DNA from: Comamonas denitrificans
Lineage (GTDB): Bacteria; Pseudomonadota; Gammaproteobacteria; Burkholderiales; Burkholderiaceae_C
NCBI RefSeq assembly: GCF_017368815.1
Contig: NZ_JAFNME010000005.1
Location: 62,001-126,000 of the forward strand
DNA: 64,000 nucleotides
Direction of reading: 5' to 3'
Part shown: piece after piece, positions 25,574-45,284 of the stretch
How positions within the stretch are numbered: the first letter of the stretch is position 1
How the letters are laid out: each line of letters opens with the position of its first letter
Made by a program: the position numbers and the translations under genes
The notes under the pieces: model-generated
What the model was told of the DNA's origin: nothing
The model's database searches: none
Seen by the model: the letters and a program-made list of their open reading frames with translations, nothing else

Positions 25574-25653
25574 AGAGCTGGTTACGCTGAAAAAATAAAT
25601 GGTTGAGGGATAAAACACCCTCAACCCTTTATGCATCAAGCGCAAACAGCTAT
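25574..25653. repeat. Palindromic intergenic element with bidirectional terminator
   Basis: The arms AGAGCTGGTTACGCTG (25574-25589) and AAGCGCAAACAGCTAT (25638-25653) are imperfect inverted repeats. The centre holds a perfect 9-bp hairpin GGTTGAGGG / CCCTCAACC (25601-25609, 25618-25626). On the minus strand the hairpin is followed by ATTTATTTTTTC, so it should terminate aroC. The convergent gene ends on the other side, and the element ends just beside the aroC stop codon. Confidence 0.75.
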
Positions 25654-26837: not shown

Positions 26838-28526
26838 CTATGGCGCATCCTGCGCGGTGCCAGCGCTGGGCATGGGGGCGCACAGGGGCAACTCCAGCGT
26901 AAAGCGGCTGCCTTGGCCACAGTAGCTCTCGAGTGCAATGCGCCCGCCCAGCAAGCCCGTGACCAGGGTATAGACAATGTGCAGCCCCAGGCCCGAGCCA
27001 CCTTGCCCCAGCTTGGTGGTGAAAAAAGGATCAAACACGCGTTTTTGCTGGTTGGCGGGAATGCCACAGCCATCGTCACTGACCACCAGGCGCACGCAAT
27101 CGTCATCACACAGCCACGCTTGCACCCAGATATTGCCCGCCACCCCAGCCGCAAAGGCATGGGTCAAAGCATTGGCAATCAAATTCATCAGCACCTGCCC
27201 CAAAGGGCCGGGGTAACTTTCCAACTCCAGCTGGGGCGGGATGGTGCAATGCAATTGATGGGCCGTGCGGCGAATGGCTGGGCGCATGGTCAGGGCAATT
27301 TCTTGCATCAGCTCGTGCAAATCAAAGCGCCGCCGCTGGCTGCTGGCTTGGTCCACCGCCAACTGTTTGAAGCTGCCCAGCAATTGCGCCGCACGGTGCA
27401 GGTTGCGCTCGATGATGGCACTGCCTTCTTGCGCATCGGCCAAGTACTGCGCCAGCGCCGTGCGCGTCAGCCCGCTGGCCACCTGCTGCTGCAGCCGCTG
27501 CTGGGCGTGTTGCAAGGTGGAGGCGACGGTGACGGCATTGCCGATCGGGGTGCTCAGCTCATGCGCCACCCCGGCGACCAAAGCGCCTAGCGAGGCCAAT
27601 TTTTCGCTTTGCAGCAAGCCTTCCTGGGTTTGCTGCAGGCGCTCCAAGGTGGCTTGCAACTGCGCCGTGCGCTCTTGTACACGCTGCTCTAGCTCGGTGT
27701 TGAGGGTGTGAATTTCTTGCTCATACAGCTTGCGCTCGGTGATGTCGAACTCAATACCGTCAAACACAATGTGGCCATTGGCCAGCCGCCGGGGGGAGGA
27801 AACCACCCGGAACCAGCGAACGCTGCCATCGGGCAAGCGGCTGCGCACCTCCAGCTTGAACGGGGTGAGGTGGGTGAGGCATTCGTGCTCAATGGCCTGC
27901 AAGCGCCGGGCATCTTCGGGCAGTAACTGCTGGTACAGCAGGCGTGCATCTTGCTGCACCGCATGCGCGGACAGTTGGTGCATGCGCTGCACGCCCTGGC
28001 TGATATAGGTCAGCACCCGCTGCTGGCCATCGATACCACAGTCCATTTGAAACACCATGGCATCGGGCAGGTTGTCGCTGATCCGCTGCAGCCGCTGCTG
28101 GCTCTCGTGCAGATGGCTTTGGGCCTGCTTGAGGCTGGTGATGTTGATATGGGTCCCCACCACCCGCCCTGAACCCTGCCCTTGGGCACCCGGCAAGGCC
28201 ATGCCCCGCGACCAAATCCAGACCCACGAGCCATCGGCATGGCGCATGCGAAACTCGTTTTCGTACATGCCTTGCGCCCCGGCGGCCAAATACTGCGCAA
28301 AGTCGGCACTGGCGCGTTCCCGATCCTGCGGATGCAGCCACTGCACCCAAATGGCATGCAAGTTGTGGCTGCCTTGGGTATCCGGAAAGTCTTCTGGCCG
28401 CTGCCCCAGCATGGTGAAATATTCTGGGCTGGCCCACAGGTGCTGGGTGTTTGGCTCCCACTCCCAGACCCCGGTATTGGAAACCTGGGCCAAAATATTT
28501 TGCAGGCGCTCAAGTTCTGAATTCAT
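26838..28526 (-). CDS. PAS-containing sensor histidine kinase
   Basis: 562 aa without a clear membrane segment, so probably cytoplasmic. Two PAS_3-like domains occupy about 10-130 (TGVWEWEPNTQHLW, RMRHADGSWVWIWSRG) and 140-270 (RLPDGSVRWFRVVSS, then DITERKLYEQEI). After a coiled coil, the phospho-acceptor block is ALVAGVAHELSTPIGNAV (His near residue 327). The ATPase has N box GQVLMNLIANALTHAF, G1 VSDDGCGIPA, F box DPFFTTKLG and G2 GGSGLGLHIVYTLV. It starts 37 nt after the stop of the REC-DUF3369-EAL gene on the same strand, so the two probably form a two-component pair. The start codon overlaps a half copy of the palindromic repeat. Confidence 0.9.
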   Translation of the reverse strand: MNSELERLQNILAQVSNTGVWEWEPNTQHLWASPEYFTMLGQRPEDFPDTQGSHNLHAIWVQWLHPQDRERASADFAQYLAAGAQGMYENEFRMRHADGSWVWIWSRGMALPGAQGQGSGRVVGTHINITSLKQAQSHLHESQQRLQRISDNLPDAMVFQMDCGIDGQQRVLTYISQGVQRMHQLSAHAVQQDARLLYQQLLPEDARRLQAIEHECLTHLTPFKLEVRSRLPDGSVRWFRVVSSPRRLANGHIVFDGIEFDITERKLYEQEIHTLNTELEQRVQERTAQLQATLERLQQTQEGLLQSEKLASLGALVAGVAHELSTPIGNAVTVASTLQHAQQRLQQQVASGLTRTALAQYLADAQEGSAIIERNLHRAAQLLGSFKQLAVDQASSQRRRFDLHELMQEIALTMRPAIRRTAHQLHCTIPPQLELESYPGPLGQVLMNLIANALTHAFAAGVAGNIWVQAWLCDDDCVRLVVSDDGCGIPANQQKRVFDPFFTTKLGQGGSGLGLHIVYTLVTGLLGGRIALESYCGQGSRFTLELPLCAPMPSAGTAQDAP

Positions 28527-41163: not shown

Positions 41164-41949
41164 CTAGCCCAAAACGGCACTCACCCCGCCATCCACCGCC
41201 AGCCATTGGCCGGTAATGTGCTTGCCCGCCGCACTGGCCAAGAGCACGGTGATGCCTTTTAAATCCTCGTCATCCCCCAGCCGGCGCAAAGGGGCCTGGG
41301 CGCACATCTGCGCCTCACCAATGGAGTCAATCAAACCGGAAGCCATTTTGGTGCGGAAAAACCCTGGGCAAATGGCATTCACCGTAATGCCCTGCGGCCC
41401 CCACTCGGCCGCCAATGCGCGGGTGAAGTTCAGCACCGCGCCTTTGGAGGTGTTGTAGGCCAGGGTGCGCATGGCAATCGGGTTGCCACCCAGCCCGGCG
41501 ATCGAAGAGATATTGATGATGCGCCCGCCGCGCTGCAGCATGCCCGCGCGGGCCACCGCTTGGCTTAATAAAAAATAGCCCCGGATATTCAAATCCATCA
41601 CCTTGTCCCAGGCGGCCAGGGGGTGCTCCTCGGCCTTGGCACCCCACGTGGCCCCGGCGTTGTTCACCAAGATATCAATACTGCCCAGGCGTTGCACCGC
41701 CGCTTGCACCAAGCTGGCAATCGCCTCAGGCTGGGCGCAATCGGCCGCCAGCCACTGGGCATCAATGCCTTGGGCCTGCAGCGCAGTGACAGCACTTTCC
41801 AGCTCGGCGGCTTTGCGGGCCGTGAGCAGCACCCGTGCCCCGGCTTCGCCCAAAGCCTGGGCCATTTGCAGCCCCAAGCCCCGCGAGCCCCCCGTGACCA
41901 AAGCAGTTTTTCCGGTTAAATCAAACAGTTGTTGCACGCTGCGTGCCAT
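41164..41949 (-). CDS. Short-chain dehydrogenase/reductase
   Basis: 261 aa. A classical SDR: cofactor loop TALVTGGSRGLGLQMA, NNAGATWG (NNAG motif), catalytic Ser in INISSIAGLGG and YNTSKGAV (YxxxK). The C-terminus ASAAGKHITGQWLAVDGG is typical of FabG-like and gluconate 5-dehydrogenase-like enzymes. Basic residues after the TGG motif suggest NADP(H). The ATG at 41949 is preceded by GGGAGACTTGCC, deciding it over an ATG further upstream. It is followed by the RND operon on the same strand with a gap of 139 nt. The substrate is unknown. Confidence 0.9.
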   Translation of the reverse strand: MARSVQQLFDLTGKTALVTGGSRGLGLQMAQALGEAGARVLLTARKAAELESAVTALQAQGIDAQWLAADCAQPEAIASLVQAAVQRLGSIDILVNNAGATWGAKAEEHPLAAWDKVMDLNIRGYFLLSQAVARAGMLQRGGRIINISSIAGLGGNPIAMRTLAYNTSKGAVLNFTRALAAEWGPQGITVNAICPGFFRTKMASGLIDSIGEAQMCAQAPLRRLGDDEDLKGITVLLASAAGKHITGQWLAVDGGVSAVLG

Positions 41950-42042
41950 GGCAAGTCTCCCTGAAAGTGAATGAAAAAAAACATTGTCCCGAGCGAGGCC
42001 AGCGGGCCTTGTCACACGGGTGCCACAGTCTCAAAAGAACAC

Positions 42043-42079
42043 TTGCCAAAGCTGCAAAAATAACTGTATATTTGAACAG
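42043..42079 (+). promoter_or_regulatory. SOS promoter: sigma70 boxes with overlapping LexA box
   Basis: The -35 TTGCCA (42043-42048), an 18-nt spacer and -10 TATATT (42067-42072) form a plausible sigma70 promoter. A perfect LexA-type box CTGTATATTTGAACAG (42064-42079; CTGT-N8-ACAG) overlaps the -10. It lies in a longer dyad, TAACTGT..ACAGTTA. The box ends 26 nt before the ATG of the 107-aa gene. Confidence 0.75.
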
Positions 42080-42105
42080 TTACTGCTTATTCATACAGGT
42101 GTTTT

Positions 42106-42429
42106 ATGCAAACTACTTTTGAAACTTTCCCCAGCAACACGCAGTTTTCCATCGAGCTGTGCGACTACCCCGAGCTGCCCGAAACCCAGCGCGAACGCGC
42201 CGAGGCCCGCTATGCCCGCACCTTGGAGCGCCAACTGGGCGATGCCCAATCCGTCTGCGCCCTGTACACGCTGATGGAGCAGCTGCAAGAGGCCAGCCCG
42301 GAAGACATCCCGCCCAACGCCCCGGCCCTGTACCAGCGCTGGCTCAAAGCCGTGCAGGCCGCCACCGAAGCGGGCATGCAAGGCCTGGGCGAAGCGGAAA
42401 CGGCGTACTTCTCGATTCGACTGCAATAA
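42106..42429 (+). CDS. Uncharacterised 107-aa protein, predicted SOS-regulated
   Basis: 107 aa, not recognised. It is acidic and appears largely helical (RERAEARYARTLERQLGD, ALYTLMEQLQEASPED, LYQRWLKAVQAATEAGMQ), with no signal peptide or membrane segment and one pair of Cys residues (C19, C51). It is not similar to YebG, DinI or SulA as far as I can judge. The ATG at 42106 has CAGGTG upstream. The promoter has a perfect LexA box over its -10, so induction on DNA damage is predicted. It is monocistronic: a strong 17-bp hairpin element follows its stop directly. Codon use looks like that of its neighbours. The function is unknown. Confidence 0.8.
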   Translation: MQTTFETFPSNTQFSIELCDYPELPETQRERAEARYARTLERQLGDAQSVCALYTLMEQLQEASPEDIPPNAPALYQRWLKAVQAATEAGMQGLGEAETAYFSIRLQ

Positions 42430-42430
42430 A

Positions 42431-42512
42431 AATAGCTGCTTGCGCTTGTTTTTAGGCATTTTTATATTAAAAACATTTAAATATGCTCTTTAATAAAGCG
42501 CAAGCAGCTATT
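42431..42512. repeat. Intact palindromic intergenic element (17-bp perfect arms)
   Basis: AATAGCTGCTTGCGCTT (42431-42447) and AAGCGCAAGCAGCTATT (42496-42512) are perfect inverted repeats around a 48-nt A+T-rich centre. The first arm starts 2 nt after the stop codon of the 107-aa gene. The right side continues TCTTTTATC, so termination in the plus direction is likely. It is the best copy of the family here. Confidence 0.85.
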
Positions 42513-42577
42513 CTTTTATCCAGCTTGAAAATCGCTACAGTTGCCGCTTTCCCCTGTTTTGCTTTTCAGCCCCTGCC

Positions 42578-42946
42578 ATGCCCCGCCTCTACTCTGTTGA
42601 ACATGTTTGGCTTGATGCCAGCACCCCCGACGCGGCCACCGTCGGCATTACCGCCCACGCCCAAGAGGCGCTGGGCGATGTCGTATTTACCGACTTGCCC
42701 GCCCCCGGCACCGTGCTGGCGGCAGGCCAAGTGGCCGGAGTGATTGAATCGGTCAAAGCCGCAGCCGATTTATTTGCCCCCGCCAGCGGGGAAGTCCTGG
42801 CGATCAATCCCGCCGTGCAAGCCAACCCCAGCTTGCTCAACACCGACCCCCTGGGCGCGGGCTGGCTGTTTACCGTGCGCCTGACGGCCCCCGCACAGCT
42901 CGATGCATTAATGGACGAAGCCGCCTACCAAGCGTTTTGCCAGTAA
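42578..42946 (+). CDS. gcvH: Glycine cleavage system H protein (orphan)
   Basis: 122 aa, normal for H protein. GcvH carries lipoate and shuttles the aminomethyl group between P, T and L proteins. The N-terminus reads YSVEHVWLD. The lipoylation motif GVIESVKAAADLFAP places the lipoyl-lysine at K60. The C-terminal part LLNTDPLGAGWLFTVRL and LDALMDEAAYQAF is typical. No gcvT or gcvP is in the window, so it is an unlinked copy. It could serve glycine cleavage encoded elsewhere or act as a lipoyl donor in lipoate relay. A hybrid kinase gene starts about 100 nt downstream. Confidence 0.93.
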   Translation: MPRLYSVEHVWLDASTPDAATVGITAHAQEALGDVVFTDLPAPGTVLAAGQVAGVIESVKAAADLFAPASGEVLAINPAVQANPSLLNTDPLGAGWLFTVRLTAPAQLDALMDEAAYQAFCQ

Positions 42947-43043
42947 GTTGCTGGCCGTTGGCCACCCGCAGGCGCGGCCAGCTTCCCCAGTAAGCGCCAG
43001 CAGTGGTAAAACCGGGCACCTGCCGTTTTGCCCTGCTGCTGCC

Positions 43044-45284
43044 ATGCGCCAACCTGATTTGTCTTTTCTCGTCCAACGCCAAGAAAGCCTGGGCGATGAC
43101 GCACCCCTGCCGCTGTTGCCGCAGGAGCCCTGCTTCGCCCCGCTCGAGGCCGTCGAAGCGGCCGCGCAGCTGCCCCAGGACGACCCCTTGGCCATTTTGA
43201 TTGCCGAGTTGCGCAACTACCAGGCCGAGCTGGAGGTGCAAAACCAGGTACTCAATTACAGCCAGGCGGTGGCAGAAAGCGCCTCTGAGCGGTTTGAAGC
43301 CTTGTTTGCCAGCGTGCCGCTGCCGCTGCTGGTGCTGGACGATGCGCACGACATGGTGATCCAGGCCAACGCCATGGCGCTCAATGCCTTTCAGCCCCAG
43401 GGCAGTGACCGGCTGCTGGCCTCTTTCATGCCGTTTGTCTGCCCCGCCGACCGCGACCGGGTGCAGCAGGCCTTCACCCTGGCCCGCAGCCAAGGCAAAA
43501 GCGAAGTGCATGAAATGGTCTTCAACCTGGGCAACCGCAGCACCATGCAGGGCGACTTGCACATTGCCTGCATTGAAGTGCCCCGGCAAGACGGCCCCCC
43601 CACGGCGCAATTCATGTGCGCCATCATCGACCAGGAGCCGCTGCTGGCCGAGCGGCGCACCCTGCAGCAGCGCAATGCCCAGCTGCTGGCCAGCGAAAAA
43701 CGGCTGGAGGCGGTGATCAACGCCTCGATGGATGCCATCATCAGCGTGGACAAGGCGATGCGCATCACCGTCTTCAACCCCACAGCAGCGGCCTTGTTTG
43801 CCTGCAGCGCCGAAGATGCCCTGGGCAGCCCCTTGGCGCGGTTTTTGCCCGAGGTGGCCGCCTCTTTGCCCTTGTCCCACATCACCACCCAGGCCCTGCT
43901 GGGCGAAATGCAGGCCCACACAGCCAGTGGCCAGCGGGTGGCGGTGGAGGTCAGCGTCGCTTTTGAGCCTGACGGAACCAGTACCACCGTGTTTGCCCGC
44001 GACCTGACCAGCCGCAAGCGCACCGAAGCGCAGCGCAGCGCCCTGGAAACCCAATTGCGCGAAGCGCACAAAATGCAGGCGCTGGGCACCATGGCCGGGG
44101 GCATTGCGCACGACTTCAACAACATCGTCGGTGCAATCCTGGGCAACGTGGAATTGGCCAAAACCGATAGCAGCCACCAGCCGCAGCTTTTGGACAGCTT
44201 GCTGGAAATTGAAAAAGCCGGCCGCCGCGCCCGTGATTTGGTGCGGCAAATTCTCACCTTTAGCCGCAACGAGCCCCCCGCCCGCCGCGCCGTCCACCCA
44301 CGGCACGCCATCCAAGAAAGCGAAAAACTCTTGCGCATGGGCCTGCCCCCGGCGATTGAGCTGGCGATTGATGCCCCGGCCGATCTTCCCCCCATGCTGG
44401 CCGACCCGGCCCAGGTCGAGCAAGCCTTGTTCAACCTGACCAACAACGCCATTCATGCCATTCACAACAGCATGCATTCCGGCGGAAAAATCACCATTCG
44501 CGCCCGCCTGGCACTGCCCGATTTGGGGCTGGTGCAGCGCTTTGACTTGCAGCCGGACAACTACATTGCCCTGACGGTGCAAGACAACGGCCCGGGCATG
44601 GATGCCGCCACCCAAGAGCGCATTTTTGAACCCTTCTTCACCACTAAGCCCGTGGGCCAAGGCACTGGGCTGGGGCTGGCCGTAGTGCACGGCCTGATGC
44701 GCACCCACGAAGGGGCTGTCGAGGTGCACAGCCACCCGGGCCAAGGCTGCACCTTCACGCTGTACTTTCCGCTGCTGCCCGCCAGTACGGCGGCGATTTT
44801 TACTGCCCCCCGGTTGCAGCGCGTTAAACCCCTGGAATCGGCCGCCCTGCCCGTCACCCTGCACTCGGCCCCACAAATGCAGCACCATGTGATGTATGTC
44901 GATGACGATGCCGCCATGGTGCATTTGGTGCAGCGCCTGCTGCGCCGCCGGGGCTACCAAATCACCACCTTTGAAGATCCCCGGGCGGCCGTCCAAGCGT
45001 TGCACGCTACGCCCCACGCCTTTGATTTGGTGGTCACCGACTACAACATGCCCGGTTACTGCGGTCTGGACTTGCTCAAAGCGGCCCAGTCGATTCGCCC
45101 CGATTTGCCCGTGGCCCTGGCCTCGGGCTACGTCACCTCGGAAATCAGCGAACAGGCCCTGGCCGCCGGGGCTTTGGCCCTGATTCACAAACCCAACGAT
45201 GTCAGCGAGTTGTGCGCCATCGTGGATCAGCTTTTGCACCCCAATACCCATGCCACCACCGACTGGCATGAACGCCAAAAATGA
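43044..45284 (+). CDS. Hybrid sensor histidine kinase with PAS domains and C-terminal receiver
   Basis: 746 aa, cytoplasmic by sequence. An N-terminal coiled coil (AELRNYQAELEVQNQVLNYS) precedes a PAS domain (about 85-210) and a second PAS (about 225-340, INASMDAIISVDKAMRITVF). The phospho-acceptor block GTMAGGIAHDFNNIVGAIL is of the type in NtrB-like and hybrid kinases. The ATPase has LFNLTNNAIHAIHNS, VQDNGPGMDAA, EPFFTTKPVGQGTGLGLAVV. A receiver domain ends the protein (HVMYVDDDAAMVHLV, Asp in DLVVTDYNMPG, Lys in ALIHKP). No cognate regulator is adjacent. The ATG at 43044 is preferred over a TTG 96 nt upstream. It overlaps the pseudouridine synthase gene by 4 nt. Confidence 0.9.
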   Translation: MRQPDLSFLVQRQESLGDDAPLPLLPQEPCFAPLEAVEAAAQLPQDDPLAILIAELRNYQAELEVQNQVLNYSQAVAESASERFEALFASVPLPLLVLDDAHDMVIQANAMALNAFQPQGSDRLLASFMPFVCPADRDRVQQAFTLARSQGKSEVHEMVFNLGNRSTMQGDLHIACIEVPRQDGPPTAQFMCAIIDQEPLLAERRTLQQRNAQLLASEKRLEAVINASMDAIISVDKAMRITVFNPTAAALFACSAEDALGSPLARFLPEVAASLPLSHITTQALLGEMQAHTASGQRVAVEVSVAFEPDGTSTTVFARDLTSRKRTEAQRSALETQLREAHKMQALGTMAGGIAHDFNNIVGAILGNVELAKTDSSHQPQLLDSLLEIEKAGRRARDLVRQILTFSRNEPPARRAVHPRHAIQESEKLLRMGLPPAIELAIDAPADLPPMLADPAQVEQALFNLTNNAIHAIHNSMHSGGKITIRARLALPDLGLVQRFDLQPDNYIALTVQDNGPGMDAATQERIFEPFFTTKPVGQGTGLGLAVVHGLMRTHEGAVEVHSHPGQGCTFTLYFPLLPASTAAIFTAPRLQRVKPLESAALPVTLHSAPQMQHHVMYVDDDAAMVHLVQRLLRRRGYQITTFEDPRAAVQALHATPHAFDLVVTDYNMPGYCGLDLLKAAQSIRPDLPVALASGYVTSEISEQALAAGALALIHKPNDVSELCAIVDQLLHPNTHATTDWHERQK

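Follow-up and report, generated by a model that had tools for sequence, protein, structure and literature searches.

In this study we consider a small gene of Comamonas denitrificans carried by a 64,000-nucleotide (nt) stretch of contig NZ_JAFNME010000005.1 (assembly GCF_017368815.1, positions 62,001 to 126,000), hereafter the window. The gene encodes a 107-amino acid (aa) protein of an unnamed family (Table 1). From the letters alone, the original prediction had placed it under a LexA-controlled promoter. Direct reading and a promoter scan bear out the sigma70 promoter that had been claimed (TTGCCA, 18 nt, TATATT). Direct reading likewise confirms that the perfect CTGT-N8-ACAG box CTGTATATTTGAACAG overlies the -10 hexamer and that 26 nt separate its end (42079) from the ATG at 42106. 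Between 41900 and 42600, the scan returned this single promoter, with 10 of 12 positions matching, versus 0.3 in shuffled sequences. The perfect box pattern is weak evidence by itself. It is not rare in the window, where 2 matches are found versus 0.74 expected, the other one being located inside the open reading frame (ORF) 42948-45284. Thus, the significance of the box comes from its conservation with the gene and not from its rarity.

This conservation was evaluated on 141 records (91 different proteins), which collapsed at 90% identity to 68 non-redundant relatives; search matches without supplied loci were left out. The main branch comprises 59 of these relatives and the most distant branch the other 9. 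Since start codons were picked by a script, distances are approximate. Within 160 nt upstream, 47 of the 59 main-branch members carry a perfect box, 7 carry a CTG-N10-CAG variant (that of L031 being probably due to chance) and 5 carry neither (L050, where the box has one mismatch, L083, L084, L102 and L103). As controls, 160-nt windows drawn at random from these loci were scanned, and 415 of 11,800 (3.5%) contained a perfect box. Among the other ORFs (120 aa or longer), 8 of 282 had one upstream, four of these boxes being the same box viewed from the divergent neighbour. No box was found in the distant branch (0 of 9; L036, L038-L043, L134, L135). The box is therefore a feature of the main branch rather than of all relatives, and the box-less branch may perhaps have a different or ancestral role.

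Within the genus, 30 loci were compared. A perfect box was detected by script in 24 of them (25 with L064 corrected) and a variant in 4, and at least two CTG-N10-CAG boxes are present in 23. At the locus studied here, a second, imperfect box (42083-42098) had been overlooked by the original prediction; its counterparts in L046 and L047, the closest two relatives, are perfect. The TATATT hexamer is retained within the boxes of many relatives. The box accompanies the gene in most genus loci, in other genera of Burkholderiaceae_C, in all 18 copies found on viral contigs and in phage Aval. Such conservation strongly supports LexA control, and it is very probable, judging from the conserved boxes, that LexA would bind this promoter and that the gene would be induced by DNA damage. 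The idea has thus survived the comparison of orthologues that had been proposed as its test, and the initial observation stands, stronger than originally claimed. LexA control of small genes is of a known kind.

Table 1. Features of the locus (positions in the window).
Feature	Coordinates	Strand	Basis and remarks
-35 hexamer TTGCCA	42043..42048	+	direct reading; promoter scan
Perfect LexA-type box CTGTATATTTGAACAG	42064..42079	+	direct reading; conserved 5' of relatives
-10 hexamer TATATT, within the perfect box	42067..42072	+	direct reading; promoter scan; 18-nt spacer from -35
Second, imperfect LexA-type box CTGCTTATTCATACAG	42083..42098	+	CTGTTCATTCATACAG is the perfect form in L046 and L047
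107-aa ORF, unnamed family; predicted beta-alpha-alpha-alpha-beta fold	42106..42429	+	no Pfam/NCBIfam match
Long hairpin; probable copy of a dispersed palindromic repeat, not gene-specific	42432..42511	.	folding; repeat search

The box overlapping the promoter is of the host's own LexA type, the same motif being found before lexA and recA. In the same genome, the lexA box CTGTACAAATTCACAG begins 24 nt 5' of the ATG and the recA box CTGTTTAAAAATACAG (+ strand) begins 26 nt 5' of the ATG. Across this genome (3.0 Mb, 74 contigs), CTGT-N8-ACAG occurs at 21 places versus 9 for a reversed control pattern. A passage on SOS boxes gives CTGT-N8-ACAG as the consensus for most beta-proteobacteria (PMC6595937).

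The protein had been described as small, acidic and helical, and as unrecognised. Both descriptions hold. The isoelectric point is 4.4, with 16 D/E and 8 K/R residues, and the predicted structure is of the beta-alpha3-beta type with three helices (predicted local distance difference test score, 86). No clear match to this predicted fold was found in the PDB, and the profile searches that had been suggested gave no family match in Pfam (E-value up to 10) or NCBIfam. In the genus Comamonas, a copy is present in 51 of 53 genomes, and in all 46 of those with completeness of 90% or more and contamination of 5% or less; the two genomes without a copy are both about 85% complete. For 9 of the 51, the sole match belongs to a more distant branch (E-values from 1e-6 to 4e-9). 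Named relatives of the gene are found in Comamonas testosteroni and its kin. A profile (A1) search of Burkholderiaceae_C gave matches in 63 of 299 genomes and 33 of 141 genera. Searching the order yielded 7 matched genomes out of 300, two being outside Burkholderiaceae_C, one of them weak (E-value 9e-4); searching the class yielded 3 out of 274, with one, also weak (E-value 9e-4), outside. In the genomes searched, the protein family is thus nearly confined, as far as profile matches can tell, to one family of Burkholderiales. It appears to be undescribed in the open-licence literature.

What surrounds the gene on chromosomes varies. The gene of the window type adjoins an SDR gene: in genus loci of this type, tblastn detected the SDR protein of the window in the flank of 27 of 38 loci, strand not considered, or of 22 of 32 once six duplicate-contig loci are dropped; it was found by tblastn in none of the 13 genus loci of the other types (L120-L132). 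A second chromosomal group (L127-L129, L132, L157) has nearby a protein of 861-937 aa, which resembles aconitase B. In genome G020, umuD and umuC come after one copy (L141), which has the variant box CTGTATGCTTAACCAG and, on its other side, an SRAP gene; a second copy (L142) precedes a truncated umuD. A umuC-like gene lies beside a family member only in L083 and L141 among the clustered neighbourhoods. Perfect boxes were also observed between other genes: CTGTATGAAAAAACAG (L006 1501-1516) lies between two ORFs, one presumably MFS-like and the other presumably related to the topoisomerase IV subunit ParE, and CTGTATTTATGAACAG lies in L155 between two further divergent ORFs adjoining a family member.

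Turning to mobile elements, viral contigs carry 18 copies, all of which have a perfect box together with a second box of the CTG-N10-CAG type. Neighbours of the S24 type were searched by tblastn, using three repressors, two UmuD and one LexA as queries. In 17 of the 18 copies, an S24-type repressor gene precedes the family member on the same strand, at most 1 kb away in 16 and at about 3.8 kb in L178; none was found by tblastn in L179, where the flank is shorter. These loci are not all independent, several being almost identical to each other or to genus loci. Pfam confirmed a Peptidase_S24 domain in the four representative linked repressors tested, which are dissimilar (240 aa, 297 aa and two unlike 229-aa kinds) while the small gene is constant. 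When all loci tested are considered (n=61), an S24-type match is present in 27 and absent from 34. In phage Aval, the boxed copy is located at the end opposite the integrase, as the first of three same-strand genes; the two behind it (L082 439-1088), the unnamed gp47c and gp46c, have no Pfam match. On the Polaromonas plasmid pH6NP1, the gene order is trfA-gene-umuD-umuC, and the 160 nt upstream of this copy contain no box. The family copy of a Variovorax replicon lies close to an SRAP gene, which itself has a perfect box.

Taken together, these associations tie the family to proteins that undergo RecA-stimulated self-cleavage: to LexA by the control of the family's genes, to UmuD by shared operons and to prophage repressors by adjacency. 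Considering these links, the following mechanism may be envisaged. The gene would be a LexA-repressed, single-gene SOS unit. Upon DNA damage, RecA filaments would induce LexA to cleave itself, which would clear the box over the -10 hexamer and allow the protein to be made. The product would then tune the speed of self-cleavage of LexA, UmuD or a prophage repressor, or would stabilise or dampen the RecA filament, in a DinI-like role. The host would benefit from the chromosomal copy, a prophage with a copy next to its S24 repressor would be able to set its own induction threshold, and a copy adjoining umuDC would determine when the mutagenic polymerase is activated. We favour this modulation of the RecA-filament/S24-protease step by a LexA-repressed SOS protein as a tentative reading, whose chances as a whole we place slightly below even; the RecA/S24 target, in particular, is inferred from the neighbours. 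Two facts weigh against it. Most chromosomal copies have no S24 or umuDC neighbour, and the neighbour link is an indirect one from which the window's own copy stands apart. It is possible, with rather less confidence, that the family controls RecA-stimulated S24 self-cleavage generally, each host chromosome, prophage or plasmid setting its threshold for the cleavage of LexA, UmuD or repressors, with a DinI/Hex-like function on an unrelated fold.

DinI (PF06183) and its phage relatives, including the second half of Tum, are among the nearest parallels, being likewise small, LexA-controlled and present in host and prophage copies. DinI folds into two helices and a three-stranded sheet, whereas the present protein is longer and has the predicted order beta-alpha-alpha-alpha-beta. 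The DinI relative ImpC belongs to an operon, impCAB, with which the place of the family before umuDC-type genes may be compared. This operon is named in part of PMC7092418, and a passage of PMC3121763 presents the dinI homologues of Gifsy phages as the first genes of LexA-controlled operons. No similarity of the family to DinI was detected in Pfam scans or by hhalign (probabilities of 0.1% and 0.6%). DinI itself was above the Pfam cut-off in none of 150 genomes of Burkholderiaceae_C, the E. coli control being found, and neither DinI nor SulA was above cut-off in the present genome. Sub-threshold DinI matches, just below cut-off, were obtained in 8 of the 150 genomes. Three of the near-miss loci (L160, from the genome studied here, L193 and L194) encode one kind of protein, without a box, which we take to be YajQ-like; this hints that the DinI model picks up such a fold by chance or through distant likeness.

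Hex of phage 434 resembles the family by its description. Its gene follows and partly overlaps cI (PMC3564112, in the part dealing with Hex), and most viral copies of the family also follow repressor genes. According to the same part, a Hex fragment blocks the RecA-stimulated cleavage of the 434 and P22 repressors but has no such effect on the lambda repressor or LexA, and in the authors' view it has no direct action on RecA. Hex is moreover described there as made from the cI transcript in lysogens, whereas the family has its own LexA boxes.

The original prediction had left the choice between a new damage-response factor and a division-control factor. The conserved boxes uphold the assignment to the SOS response, while the neighbours of the mobile copies favour the RecA/S24 branch over cell division. 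Division control is the main rival, albeit an unlikely one: the product would be induced by the SOS response to hold back division while repair proceeds, as a counterpart of SulA specific to this lineage. SulA is a small SOS gene under a LexA box, SidA and YneA are further SOS division inhibitors, and prophages can carry such inhibitors. The family is likewise made of small genes under a LexA-type box, standing alone in 51 of 53 genus genomes, and the absence of a SulA match above cut-off in this genome also speaks for this rival. The 107-aa protein differs from SulA in having no match to PF03846 and in its neighbours. Against division control, S24 repressors and umuDC rather than division genes lie beside the mobile copies, and a place before umuDC would have no clear rationale for a division inhibitor. 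We regard as more unlikely again an antirepressor that would bind the phage repressor and lift repression on SOS induction, as the Gifsy antirepressors or Tum do, the chromosomal copy being a co-opted relic. Antirepressors of the GfoA/Tum type inactivate a cognate repressor that does not undergo cleavage itself upon induction. LexA-boxed genes do adjoin repressor genes here, and small LexA-controlled antirepressors are described in part of PMC3121763. Yet the S24 domain of the four adjacent repressors tested hints at self-cleavage, so that an antirepressor seems less needed. In addition, members of one family accompany repressors of several dissimilar kinds, adjoin umuDC and, throughout the genus, stand alone on chromosomes. 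Given a constant family and varied linked repressors, it is more economical to assume an action on what these repressors have in common, the RecA filament or S24 self-cleavage, than one directed at a particular repressor.

An accessory subunit of translesion synthesis, acting with polymerase V or in sliding-clamp traffic, is improbable. The gene orders of pH6NP1 and G020 are in its favour, and a further polymerase accessory encoded by impCAB is suggested in part of PMC7092418. However, as noted above, umuC-like neighbours are few. Two members of the Variovorax group, L149 4646-5047 (-) and L084 2929-3291, have an N-terminal extension, which in L149 contains QAELFF, similar to a sliding-clamp motif; this would also suit a translesion role, but the motif is absent from the window protein. 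Finally, an SOS-regulated gene of unrelated function, for instance in superinfection exclusion, has very little probability. Genes co-transcribed with cI can serve exclusion (PMC3564112, same part), and no fold match is at hand to guide a functional assignment; retention on chromosomes throughout the genus and the links with umuDC and SRAP better fit DNA-damage functions. Among predicted LexA-regulated beta-proteobacterial genes, hypA and hypB, of no known function, are set apart by their descriptions. In the relevant part of PMC3323433, hypA is said to lack homologues outside multi-chromosome beta-proteobacteria and hypB to be restricted to Burkholderia, which fits poorly with a family found across Comamonas, including one-contig genomes. 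On this comparison of descriptions, the family is unlikely to be hypA.

Most of what is known of the SOS regulon in these bacteria comes from comparative predictions, and neither DinI nor SulA can be recognised in the present genome. A conserved LexA-boxed family shared by hosts and prophages is a direct candidate for a missing modulator. It would also provide an entry point to the control of prophage induction in Comamonas, Variovorax, Polaromonas and their kin.

On another point, the hairpin following the stop codon had been viewed as insulating the gene. Its existence is clear, and it is very stable (-37.7 kcal/mol, z -8.0). The insulating role is not supported: no terminator-like site was found by the scan of 41900-42600, and because its arm ATAGCTGCTTGCGC recurs in the window the hairpin is probably a dispersed repeat rather than a dedicated insulator. 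Exact copies of the arm are found at 28525, 42432 and 42498, and copies with 1-2 mismatches at 25640, 18441, 7656, 1855 and 51271/51337; with up to 3 mismatches, 22 sites are found in the window versus 12.4 expected.
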